Source: a virus. From it: a DNA stretch of 41,408 nt. Where the stretch lies: the IMG/VR virus record IMGVR_UViG_3300027725_000002, positions 1 through 41,408 of that record. The stretch is one strand, 5' to 3'. The stretch's first letter is position 1, and every line of letters begins with the position of its first letter. Below, in pieces: positions 27,985 to 38,294 of this stretch. The position numbers were made by a program, and so were the translations under genes. The notes beneath the pieces were generated by a model. It was not told the DNA's origin, did not search any database, and was given only the letters and a program-made list of their open reading frames with translations.

Positions 27985-28847
27985 AAGCGCTGACACTAAC
28001 GCAGCCTTGGGCGTCTCTCGTCGCGATTGGTGCAAAACGCATTGAGACGCGCTCGTGGTCCACGTCCTATCGCGGACCGCTGGCAATTCATGCGGCGAAG
28101 GGATTCCCGAAATCGGCGCAGGAGTTCACGCAGGTTCCGCCTGTTAGCGTACTTTTTGGCAGGCACTATGAGTATCCGCGCGGCGTAGTCCTGGCCACGT
28201 GTCGGCTTGTTAATTGTGTCCCGACCCAAACCCTGCTGCGCGAGGCTGCGTGCGAGCGCTGCGATGGCAAAGGCACCGTGGATAGTTGGCAGGATGGGAT
28301 GCCAGGACAAGAATACTGCCCAACGTGCGACGGAAACCGCGTCGTATTTGTGCCTGGTGGAAAACTATCGACCCAAGAACAGCAGTTTGGTGATTACGGG
28401 GAAGGCCGCTACGCCTGGATGCTTGACGACATTCAGCCAGTGCCATTTATCCCGGCAAAAGGCGCGCTCGGATTGTGGGAATGGACACAAGACCCACCAG
28501 CGCGTGCGACACAGGCTGATGGTAACGGAGGCGTCTTTTTCAGCAAGCATCCGACACGGCGAAGAATGGGCAAACCGACTGAAAACAGGAAACATAGGAT
28601 CGGCATTAGGGTCCAGGAACAAGACCGCGAGCGCATCCTTCAGCAGCTATTCCGCTGCCTCGGGAAATATGACCCTCGGGCCATCCCAAGGATCATCTCG
28701 AAGCGCACCGGGATCACTGAGCAGGCCGTTGATTACGTGTTCCAGCAGACCTGCCAGGAATTCAGAGAGTGGTCGCGTGAGATCCGACTTGGCCTAGCTA
28801 GAGCTGACGAAGCCGGATCGGCTGTGTGGGGAAGGAGAAGCGCATGA
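27981..28847 (+). CDS. ASCH-domain protein fused to helix-turn-helix-like C-terminus, 288 aa
   Basis: Residues 1-170 are an ASCH domain (start [20 protein letters not shown], then ETRSW[12 protein letters not shown] and ALGLWEW), an RNA/nucleotide-binding fold found near modification genes. A zinc module CERCDGKG-x14-CPTCDG is inserted at about 91-118. Residues 172-222 come from the 151-bp repeat, and the remaining 66 residues look helix-turn-helix ([20 protein letters not shown]). Stand-alone ASCH proteins usually end near the LWEW motif, so the fusion probably arose by the repeat. GGAG seven bases upstream sets the start. Confidence 0.75.
28494..28644 (+). repeat. 151-bp perfect direct repeat, copy 2
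   Basis: Right-hand copy, inside the ASCH gene from codon 172 to 222. Sequence matches copy 1 without a difference and breaks off sharply on both sides. Confidence 0.95.
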
Positions 28848-29422
28848 TCGAAATCCTAGACCGATTCACGCGCGCGGTTCTGTACTCAAGCGCAACCGCG
28901 AACGATATTGCCACAGCGGTGGCGGAAGCAGTTAAAAGCCGCGCGTACCTCAGCGGCGCGTACCTCAGCGGCGCGAACCTCAGCCGCGCGGACCTCAGCG
29001 GCGCGTACCTCAGCCGCGCGTACCTCAGCGGCGCGTACCTCAGCGGCGCGTACCTCAGCCGCGCGGACCTCAGCGGCGCGTACCTCAGCGGCGCGGACCT
29101 CAGCGGCGCGTACCTCAGCGGCGCGTACCTCAGCCGCGCGGACCTCAGCGGCGCGTACCTCAGCGGCGCGGACCTCAGCGGCGCACAACACGTCTTGCGG
29201 ATCTCTGGCGGTCGGCACGACATCGTTGTTTCAGACACCGGCATGGTCTCAATCGGTTGCCATGATTATCCAATCGAGCGATGGCTGGCATCGTATAAGG
29301 TCATCGGCCAAGCAGAGAACTACGGGCCAGAAGAGATCGAGGATTACGCGGATCGCCTGAAACTGGTCGCAAATTGGATTAGCCGCCAGAAGGCTCACAC
29401 AGATCAGGAGAAGACGGCATGA
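28844..29422 (+). CDS. Pentapeptide-repeat protein, 192 aa
   Basis: Residues 33-112 are 16 consecutive pentapeptides of the form (G/R)A(Y/D/N)LS, which fold as a right-handed quadrilateral beta helix. Proteins of this class can mimic DNA and bind gyrase, but most phage members are uncharacterised. The C-terminal domain ([36 protein letters not shown]) recurs after pentapeptide repeats in other proteins as I recall. ATG overlaps the ASCH stop and has GGAG seven bases upstream. Confidence 0.85.
28940..29179 (+). repeat. 15-bp tandem repeat array, 16 units
   Basis: Unit (C/G)GC-GCG-(T/G/A)AC-CTC-AGC. Leu, Ser and Ala always use the same codon; only the first base of two codons varies. Units 7-11 and 12-16 follow the same order, so a 75-bp block was duplicated. 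Confidence 0.95.
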
Positions 29423-35617: not shown

Positions 35618-35994
35618 CCGCACAGCCCTGGATCGCGCGCCGCGAGGAGTATCTCAAGAAGAAGGGCGTGGAGCCGCCGTCCTATGCATTGGCCGTAGCG
35701 AAAGAGCAGATCCGCCAGCACGTTGAACGTAAACCAGCTAGGTCGGAGTCGCAACGCGCCGCGGTATCGCGCACCATGAAGAGCTACCACGCGACGACCG
35801 AGAAGCGCCTGCACCACGAGGCTCTGTACGGGCGCCGGAAGCAGCCTGACCTTGAATTGGAGCTCAGATCAAGAATGGAGTCCGATATCGCGGCACTTCA
35901 GGGTCAGATGCGTGCTGCGCTCGGGATACTGGCGGAGCGCCGGCGGGAACTGGATCAGTTATGGGATCTGGTCGAGTGGATAATGAACCGATGA
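35614..35994 (+). CDS. Coiled-coil protein, 126 aa
   Basis: Starts by ATGA overlap. Basic start, heptad-rich second half (LRSRMESDIAALQGQMRAAL, then ERRRELDQLWDLVEW). Stop overlaps the Dam-type gene start. Function unknown. Confidence 0.6.
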   Translation: MTAQPWIARREEYLKKKGVEPPSYALAVAKEQIRQHVERKPARSESQRAAVSRTMKSYHATTEKRLHHEALYGRRKQPDLELELRSRMESDIAALQGQMRAALGILAERRRELDQLWDLVEWIMNR

Positions 35995-36449
35995 ATTCTG
36001 TGCTCTTCAGTTCGGCTACGGATCGCTGGGCGACACCGCGCGATGTCTACGATGCGCTTGACGCTGAGTTCTGTTTTGACTTCGATCCCTGCCCGATTGA
36101 CGGCACAGAAGATGGCCTTGCAACGCTCTATACGCAATGGATGGGACGCCGGATATTCTGCAACCCTCCATATGGCCCGGGGCTGGCTAAGTGGCTAGAA
36201 CGCGGGCTGGAAGCGAACCTGGCGGTATTCCTGATTCCCGCCCGGACAGACACGCGCTGGTTTCATGACATCGTGTTGCCGAATGCAAAAGAGATCCGGT
36301 TTATAAGGGGACGGTTGAAATTCGGCAATGCCGTGAATGGCGCGCCGTTTCCGAGCATGATCGTGGTGTTCAAGCGCTTGGGCAGTGAAGAGAAGAAGCC
36401 CAGAAATGCCAGGGAACATGTGTGTGGCTCAAACTGTTTGGATTGGTAA
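35991..36449 (+). CDS. Phage DNA N-6-adenine methyltransferase (Dam type), 152 aa
   Basis: Predicted methylase of adenine in phage DNA. Family features: SSATDRWATPRDVYDALDAE at the start, FDFDPCP (about 29-35), the catalytic CNPPYGPGL (57-65) and ARTDTRWFHD. Length is typical of the small phage Dam-like group. The start is set by ATGA overlap. Together with the Mom-like protein it gives this phage two adenine-directed modification genes. Confidence 0.85.
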   Translation: MNSVLFSSATDRWATPRDVYDALDAEFCFDFDPCPIDGTEDGLATLYTQWMGRRIFCNPPYGPGLAKWLERGLEANLAVFLIPARTDTRWFHDIVLPNAKEIRFIRGRLKFGNAVNGAPFPSMIVVFKRLGSEEKKPRNAREHVCGSNCLDW

Positions 36450-36673: not shown

Positions 36674-36790
36674 ATGATGTCTGAAGCGCATGTTGTCGGC
36701 CTGATCCGCCGTTGCGCGGAAGATTGGGCAGTTCCACGGGGCGGCGCTCCTGTCGCCGCTCCAGCCCAAATCCCCACAGGAGGGGGATAA
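36674..36790 (+). CDS. Small ORF before the replication initiator, 38 aa
   Basis: ATGATG start, natural-looking product (SEAHVVGLIRRCAEDWAVPR) and a Pro/Ala/Gly tail; ends two bases before the initiator start and supplies its ribosome site (GGAGG). A longer reading frame here belongs to the initiator frame upstream and is not used. Confidence 0.45.
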   Translation: MMSEAHVVGLIRRCAEDWAVPRGGAPVAAPAQIPTGGG

Positions 36791-36792
36791 AA

Positions 36793-37788
36793 GTGGCGCG
36801 CACGCGCAATCTAAAACCTGGATTCTTCAAAAACAACAAACTGGCCAAATTAGGCCCCCTATCGCAACTTATTTTCGCTGGCCTGTGGACCATAGCTGAC
36901 CGAGAGGGGCGCCTGGAGGACGAGCCTGAACGTATAAAGGTCGAGGTTTTGCCTTATGACACAGGAAAGGTAAGCAGCATAGATGTCTGCCTGTCGAAAC
37001 TGCATGAGTCCGGATTCATTCTAAGGTACGAGGTTGATGGTAACAAATACATTTCAATTCCGAAATGGCATGAGCACCAAAAGCCTCACTACATGGAGCC
37101 ACCTTCAGAAATTCCTCCGCCGCCGGGCACCGAAAACAGATACAACTGTGAACCCATCAGGAAAGAACAGCGCCAACGGATATTTTCCAAAGATAACTTT
37201 CGATGTGTGCTCTGTGGGTCAGAAGATCGACTTACTATCGATCACGTAATCCCGATCACCAAAGGTGGATCTAGCCTTGATTCAAACCTTAGAACTCTAT
37301 GCCATCAATGCAACATGATGAAGGGATCAAGGATTGATGATGGCACGATCAAGCAGCTATCATCAAACTATGATGATGGCGTTCACGTTCCCCAAAGGGA
37401 CGATCCCCTTAACCCTTCAAGCCTTAACCCTTCAAGCCTTAACCCTTCTCCTAACCTCTCACCACATGCCAAGTCCGAAATGAACGGCTACGACCCGATG
37501 CCTGGATGGAACTGGTTCAGCAAAGAATATCCGGGGCACAGGCTGAACCCCAAAATGGACTCTCAACTATGGCTCTCAGTAGTAACCCCAGAGATTGAGG
37601 CTATTATCCGCGAGAAGCTACCGCACTTCAAGGCATCAGCAGAGTGGACGGAACGCAGCGGGCAGATGGTCCCATCAGCCAGCCGATTCTTGAGCGAGGG
37701 GCGCTACACGATGGAGCCAGGGGCGCCGCCGACTAGGGAGAAAAGTCAACGTCAGCAGTTAATCGAATCCGATACGGAGAACCTATGA
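36793..37788 (+). CDS. Replication initiator with winged-helix N-terminus and internal HNH domain, 331 aa
   Basis: Residues 1-100 match the N-terminal winged-helix part of phage replisome organisers (NLKPGFFKNNKLAKLGPLSQ, then ADREGRLEDEPERIKVEVLP, KYISIPKWHEHQKPH). Residues about 122-183 form a complete HNH domain: CVLCG (138-142), DHVIPITKGG (150-159), NLRTLCHQCN and the closing MKGSR. A low-complexity LNPSS repeat (206-219) and a C-terminal domain with WLSVVTPEIEAII follow. The HNH is read in frame, so this is a multi-domain protein and not an intron. GTG start at 36793 with GGAGG upstream. Confidence 0.75.
   Translation: MARTRNLKPGFFKNNKLAKLGPLSQLIFAGLWTIADREGRLEDEPERIKVEVLPYDTGKVSSIDVCLSKLHESGFILRYEVDGNKYISIPKWHEHQKPHYMEPPSEIPPPPGTENRYNCEPIRKEQRQRIFSKDNFRCVLCGSEDRLTIDHVIPITKGGSSLDSNLRTLCHQCNMMKGSRIDDGTIKQLSSNYDDGVHVPQRDDPLNPSSLNPSSLNPSPNLSPHAKSEMNGYDPMPGWNWFSKEYPGHRLNPKMDSQLWLSVVTPEIEAIIREKLPHFKASAEWTERSGQMVPSASRFLSEGRYTMEPGAPPTREKSQRQQLIESDTENL
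37408..37448 (+). repeat. 15-bp iteron-like repeat inside the initiator gene
   Basis: CTTAACCCTTCAAGC at 37408-37422 and 37423-37437, then CTTAACCCTTC at 37438-37448. It encodes LNPSS repeats and lies where lambdoid phages keep origin iterons (within the initiator gene). Origin function is inferred. Confidence 0.65.
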
Positions 37789-38294
37789 GCCTTGAACGTA
37801 AAACCGTGAAAGCCCAGGTCAGCCGCATGGAGAGCCTAGATTTCTTCCCGCAATTACCGGCGGGCCTGAAGGAGGTCGAGAACGCGCTGATGGAGTTCCC
37901 AACCGCGGCAATGTGCGAAAGTTGGGTCACCGACTGGCTACAGGGGCATGAGGATTTCCCGAAGCCGGCCGCAATCTACGCTTCGCTGCGAACCGTCAAG
38001 AACCTTCAGACGGAGACACAAGAGGCATGGAAGAACCCGCCGGCTGAAAAATACGACTGCCCGCACGGATGCAAGGGGTGGGGTACAATTCGCAACGAAG
38101 CCGGCGCCCACCAGTTCTGCCTGTGCAGCGCAGGCCAGGCGCTACGTGAAGCGAGCCCTGGTTGGCTGGAGCTCCTGGGTAGGTTGGACGCCAGAGCGCG
38201 TAAAACGCCCCGTAGCGCGAAAGGCGGCCTATCGACGAAGTTGGAAGGACTGGAGGGAAGGTATTACGAGGCGAAGAAGGGGGCCGATGGCTGA
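37785..38294 (+). CDS. Possible replication accessory protein with Cys motifs, 169 aa
   Basis: Overlaps the initiator stop (ATGA), a place where helicase loaders or partner proteins often lie. The N-terminal 90 residues are helical (VENALMEFPTAAMCESWVTD); a zinc-like CPHGCKGWG and FCLC pair follows. No P-loop is visible, so it is not a DnaC-type ATPase. Confidence 0.6.
   Translation: MSLERKTVKAQVSRMESLDFFPQLPAGLKEVENALMEFPTAAMCESWVTDWLQGHEDFPKPAAIYASLRTVKNLQTETQEAWKNPPAEKYDCPHGCKGWGTIRNEAGAHQFCLCSAGQALREASPGWLELLGRLDARARKTPRSAKGGLSTKLEGLEGRYYEAKKGADG

Follow-up and report, generated by a model that had tools for sequence, protein, structure and literature searches.

A predicted phage replication initiator with an in-frame HNH nuclease domain and a very likely origin of replication inside its gene

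The stretch of DNA analysed here, called the window below, is the whole of the 41,408-bp IMG/VR virus record IMGVR_UViG_3300027725_000002 (positions 1 to 41,408). Its early genes lie on the plus strand and its late genes (endolysin, terminase) on the minus strand. The plus strand carries a replication initiator gene whose parts and immediate flanks are as follows:

36778..36786, plus strand: Shine-Dalgarno-like sequence AGGAGGGGG, 6 bases 5' of the GTG, found by sequence inspection
36793..37788, plus strand: replication initiator gene, GTG start, frame open throughout, 331 aa, assigned by phage family matches
36793..37122, plus strand: winged-helix DNA-binding domain, aa 1-110 (phrog_16167, AlphaFold2, Foldseek)
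37156..37341, plus strand: HNH nuclease domain, aa ~122-183 (Pfam, alignment of fused HNHs, AlphaFold2)
37334..37344, plus strand: candidate 11-bp iteron TTGATGATGGC, one of three copies within 47 bp
37345..37488, plus strand: disordered linker, aa 185-232, whose coding DNA is the candidate origin (AlphaFold2 pLDDT)
37356..37366, minus strand: candidate 11-bp iteron of the same three-copy set, inverted, TTGATGATAGC
37370..37380, plus strand: candidate 11-bp iteron of the same set, ATGATGATGGC
37407..37451, plus strand: 7+8-bp heptamer array (15-bp repeat), CCTTAAC.CCTTCAAG.CCTTAAC.CCTTCAAG.CCTTAAC.CCTTCTCC (repeat search, shuffles)
37489..37785, plus strand: helical C-terminal domain (AlphaFold2)
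37785..38294, plus strand: 169-aa gene overlapping the initiator stop

In relatives, the gene next to the initiator encodes either a helicase loader (P-like or DnaC-like) or the helicase itself (DnaB); the 169-aa neighbour in the window has no family match, and its position makes it a candidate helicase-loader gene. Several other plus-strand genes were noted. A phage Dam-type adenine methyltransferase gene (PF05869, 1.2e-16) lies 5' of the initiator at 35961-36449, and a methyltransferase-like gene at 39752-40510 matches PADLOC mads_2 (9e-14) solely across the methyltransferase region, its product being probably a generic methyltransferase. At 28826-29422 lies the gene for a 198-aa pentapeptide-repeat protein (Pfam, 1.5e-36), which contains 16.5 copies of a 15-bp unit at 28937-29184; proteins of the pentapeptide-repeat fold include DNA mimics that act on gyrase.

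Residues 1-113 of the initiator match phage replication-initiation families (phrog_16167, E 2e-38), and the gene has the N-terminal winged helix that defines this initiator family (phrog_16167 / 12556 / 17247); the winged helix alone is matched by 333 of 50,697 phage records. AlphaFold2 modelled the whole protein with a mean pLDDT of 81 and a pTM of 0.54, as two confident domains, a disordered linker (pLDDT <50 at aa 185-203 and 210-232) and a helical C-terminus. The first domain is a helix-turn-helix with a two-stranded wing, at a pLDDT of at least 90 across most of aa 11-110. By fold it groups in Foldseek with BlaI/MecI/ArsR/Fur-type structures and with the solved initiator N-terminal domains 4pql and 4pt7, none of the PDB matches to the winged helix reaching E <= 0.001. 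The C-terminal domain resembles the C-terminus of an HNH-less relative (L173, E 9e-6), and C-terminal halves are exchangeable between members of the family.

The second domain is matched by Pfam HNH_5 (1.6e-12) and HNH (1.6e-11), and the profiles phrog_5718 and phrog_12556 also match, each of them spanning winged helix and HNH together. Its motif is complete (C138xxC141 / D150-H151 / N165 / C170xxC173N174 / K177), thus comprising the Cys pairs, catalytic His, Asn and metal ligands by which the HNH nuclease superfamily is recognised. All motif residues are kept across 14 aligned fused relatives, and the catalytic positions are invariant among fused HNHs that share about 40% identity. For these domains dN/dS is about 0.05-0.28, with dS near saturation, and the HNH looks both catalytically intact and under purifying selection. 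Its best sequence match, also among the top fold matches, is 4h9d, a solved HNH nicking endonuclease, and within the family it clusters with the HNH of a relative from an actinobacterial assembly (L165). Signs of an intein or intron around the nuclease were looked for: the Pfam matches include no intein family, Rfam gives no hit, and the frame is open throughout.

Downstream of the HNH, the 15-bp repeat CCTTAACCCTTCAAG runs for 2.8 tandem copies at 37407-37448, a period of 7 being detected as well. Its tandem score is 27, against a maximum of 23 over 1000 protein-preserving synonymous shuffles, and because all 1000 are exceeded, neither chance nor codon preference accounts for the repeat. The array lies at a position homologous to that of the CTGATTC arrays of relatives, several of which also use CCTTAAC as array unit. 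Read against these relatives, the 15-bp repeat belongs to the same type of heptamer array, in a 7+8 version, and is probably the unwinding or assembly element of a putative in-gene origin. Between the HNH and this array sit the three TTGATGATRGC 11-mers; as many copies were reached in 3 of 500 synonymous shuffles (p about 0.006, for a best-motif search in one gene). These 11-mers differ from the CAACGTT type discussed below, and their support as iterons is modest. The preliminary description, made from the letters of the window, had proposed a winged-helix initiator with a complete in-frame HNH and a 15-bp repeat, and this is confirmed by phrog_16167, Pfam, the conserved motif and the repeat score; structure prediction, suggested there as a check, returned the confident winged helix reported above. 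As a further check it had proposed GC skew near 37.4 kb, where no signal is present: skew tracks gene and transcription direction, its cumulative minimum lying near 26-27 kb, and it was rejected as an origin marker.

The case for an origin inside the gene comes mainly from the family. A direct scan of viral contigs with the window protein gave no match, and relatives were drawn by pattern scans from viral contigs, genomes and phage records, 184 dereplicated genes entering the repeat tests. In these genes, the DNA just past the winged helix, or past the HNH where there is one, has an 11-bp period, with a periodicity of 0.406 versus 0.329 in synonymous shuffles that preserve protein and codon usage (z ~23); the signal is also seen at 22 and 33 bp. 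The next region shows periodicity above shuffles at 7, 8, 14, 15 and 21 bp (z 16-26). Its commonest heptamer is CTGATTC, present in at least 3 copies in 111 of the 184 genes, and the TGATTC core occurs 2.86 times per gene versus 0.56 in shuffles. A+T is modestly above the gene average in the repeat region, by about 9% at the heptamers.

Repeats of this kind could simply reflect a low-complexity protein linker, with the origin lying elsewhere, and the disorder that AlphaFold2 gives the linker and the silence of GC skew at 37.4 kb would fit such an account. However, the repeats do not survive synonymous shuffling; the CTGATTC-type heptamer is found again in phages and prophages whose hosts span many bacterial phyla; and TGATTC is read in more than one reading frame within the gene in 122 of 134 genes, so that an explanation at the protein level fails. 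For the family, this alternative is already disfavoured, and it appears very improbable. As judged from these comparisons, the family repeats are DNA elements rather than protein repeats, and the synonymous-shuffle tests reveal the feature that marks a lambda-O-type initiator, namely in-gene repeats selected as DNA. The origin is therefore very likely to lie inside the initiator gene, as far as sequence can tell, and the idea of origin iterons within this gene, put forward in the preliminary description, gains strong support from the wider family. That description had held that its view would be refuted by homologues without the HNH, together with no binding to the repeat and an origin elsewhere. 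Of these points the first applies: homologues without the HNH do exist. Most of them retain iterons, so that origin function does not depend on the nuclease.

Fused nucleases are distributed patchily. An HNH is fused in 19 of 214 dereplicated initiators, its start always falling at aa 116-132, and about 90% of relatives have none; the genomes sampled also show the fusion to be rare (1/399 and 0/395), the single case among the 399 having already been in the sample. The Streptomyces phage Austintatious and contig ct4oC223, taken up as extra fusions from hit coverage, were rejected, their sequences being without an HNH. The winged-helix tree implies about 10 changes in HNH presence, and the HNH tree places the fused domains in several separate lineages with 9 changes, these trees being built on ~108 aa and 63 aa, respectively, with several weak nodes. 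On these trees the domain was acquired about ten times, each time at the same joint.

Nor is HNH the only nuclease found there. The p19 protein of phage Mx8 (L321:1971-3152) has the same winged helix with a MUG113/T5orf172 insert (MUG113 3.8e-13) at the HNH joint, a domain that we take to belong to the GIY-YIG superfamily. Free-standing HNH genes, which often overlap the initiator start or nearly so, immediately precede 26 of the 214 initiators (for instance L002, L003, L106, L190 and L224), and Pseudomonas phage P27 has both a free and a fused HNH. The Mx8 insert, too, has a free-standing relative, at L371:2139-2520, directly upstream of an HNH-less initiator, in parallel with the free HNH genes. 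In L080 there is a second family member, a 183-aa protein that joins the initiator winged helix to another C-terminal segment, HNH-like in sequence (HHVDHIVPLAG...NLQVIPAAGNLKKSN), and is possibly a separate kind of fusion.

Patchy distribution and repeated gain at one site are the marks of a homing endonuclease, and both are seen here. The domesticated homing nuclease, offered in the preliminary description as the alternative to a self-cutting initiator, fits the rarity of the fusion, its repeated gain at one joint, the 26 upstream free HNHs and the exchange between two phages described below. A homing endonuclease might instead persist as a dispensable remnant, tolerated in a flexible linker while the iteron change hitch-hikes; the domain is indeed rare and patchy, and one tolerant joint hosts both HNH and GIY-YIG domains. 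With the catalytic residues intact and dN/dS far under 1, such a passenger is nevertheless highly improbable.

Presence of the fused HNH goes together with a different iteron. HNH-less genes mostly have AGCACC-like iterons, AGCAC being found in 108 of 166 of them versus 1 of 18 HNH-bearing genes, and AACGT in 3 of 166 versus 11 of 18. Many HNH-bearing genes have CAACGTT-like repeats instead, a motif that was spotted by eye and then came top in a test of all 5-mers. With HNH-bearing clades as units, 9 of 10 depart in one common direction from their sister groups (p 0.011). Similarity of the winged helix predicts the iterons in HNH-less genes (rho 0.56), but not in HNH-bearing ones (p 4e-8). That any neighbouring HNH would force the change was rejected, no iteron change being associated with free upstream HNH genes, and this also speaks against the iterons as a general cut site.

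These data bear on a reading in which the HNH is mainly an extra DNA-binding domain that confers a new iteron, cutting being unimportant. That iterons change with fused and not with free HNHs points this way, as does the CAACGTT iteron common to fused HNHs on differing winged-helix lineages. The conservation of catalytic residues at ~40% identity, however, exceeds what a binding-only role needs, and the winged helix, which predicts the iterons of HNH-less genes, probably binds there itself. Partial correlation failed to single out either domain as the iteron reader: among HNH-bearing genes the iterons track the HNH (partial r 0.36) and the winged helix (0.44) about equally, and both contribute. 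We regard the binding-only role as rather unlikely.

A second reading, put forward in the preliminary description, is that the HNH nicks the initiator's own in-gene origin. The nick would relieve supercoiling or supply a 3' end for rolling-circle-type replication. The intact and conserved motif, the closeness to the nicking endonuclease 4h9d in sequence and fold, and the variation of iterons with HNH presence are all in keeping with it, and recurrent gain of a nuclease at one joint could mean a benefit to the initiator. Against it, the neighbouring genes are loader and helicase genes of the theta type, no conserved nick site was apparent, and the fusion is rare in genomes. Moreover, the family does not generally require a nick, since the roughly nine-tenths of relatives that lack the HNH mostly keep the in-gene origin. 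Self-nicking is, on balance, unlikely.

The phages P27 and JBD44 offer a closer view of how the segment moves. They are identical upstream and through codon 7 of the initiator, and near-identical from the heptamer array on, with the same heptamers in both; the whole winged-helix/HNH/iteron segment in between is replaced. In this pair the iterons have therefore followed the N-terminal part of the gene rather than its C-terminal part; since winged helix and HNH moved jointly, the pair does not distinguish which of them reads the iterons. Homing nucleases produce local co-conversion of this sort (PMC2988022), and the block exchange may be a sign of homing copy-in, which it can do no more than suggest.

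The reading that we prefer, at a probability of about one in two, is that the HNH is an active homing-type nuclease within the origin-specificity cassette of a lambda-O-type initiator with an in-gene origin. It is favoured because of the patchiness, the multiple nuclease families and the block exchange; the confinement of the iteron switch to fused HNHs leaves room for the self-nicking and binding-only readings. From the comparison of relatives, the winged-helix end would bind the iterons, which are phased at 11 bp in the DNA that encodes the linker; the array of ~7-bp heptamers beside them would open or organise the strands, and the C-terminal half would recruit the helicase or its loader. 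In a mixed infection, the HNH would cut or nick initiator/origin alleles without an HNH, and repair of the cut allele by recombination would copy the cassette in (gene conversion), while its own allele would be protected, its target split by the insert and its iterons altered. A broader proposal, that unrelated nuclease superfamilies are repeatedly recruited at one joint with the iterons co-changing, so that an initiator both defines its origin and cuts its own or rival origins, is offered only tentatively.

Origins inside initiator genes are already known. The lambda origin lies in the O gene, which thus holds its own initiator-binding repeats followed by an opening region (PMC5043065), and the likeness extends to HK639, where a gene of the present family occupies the lambda-O operon position with a P-like loader next to it. 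The lambda origin differs in having four 19-bp inverted repeats and 40 bp of A+T instead of 11-bp phased repeats and 7-bp heptamers, and O is without a nuclease domain. Similarly, SPP1 oriL lies in gene 38, with direct repeats and an unwinding element in the initiator gene and a helicase loader gene next (PMC6316719); no nuclease domain is described for gp38, and the likeness rests on layout, repeat sequences aside. We found no description in the open-access literature of a nuclease fused into a phage initiator with a coupled iteron change, which is apparently the undescribed part. The HNH homing endonucleases MobA and MobE of phage T4 are free-standing (PMC2988022), whereas here the nuclease is fused in frame, without intron or intein, inside an essential-type protein. 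Mx8 p19 shares the winged helix and has a nuclease-superfamily domain at the same joint, but of the GIY-YIG superfamily instead of HNH. The P27 initiator (XAQ58212.1) shows the same order of winged helix, HNH, iterons and heptamers as the window, from which it differs by CAACGTT iterons, CTGATTC heptamers and another C-terminal half; it is annotated merely as 'replication initiation protein', and such fusions sit unremarked in databases. From the comparison an anonymous phage gene family gains a predicted origin, in which the linker DNA has 11-bp iterons followed by heptamers of the CTGATTC type. P27 and JBD44, which share the host PA14, form a natural swap pair in which initiator specificity, nuclease and iterons have changed as a block. 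Should the nuclease act on origins, the replication modules of different phages would have here a way of competing with one another.
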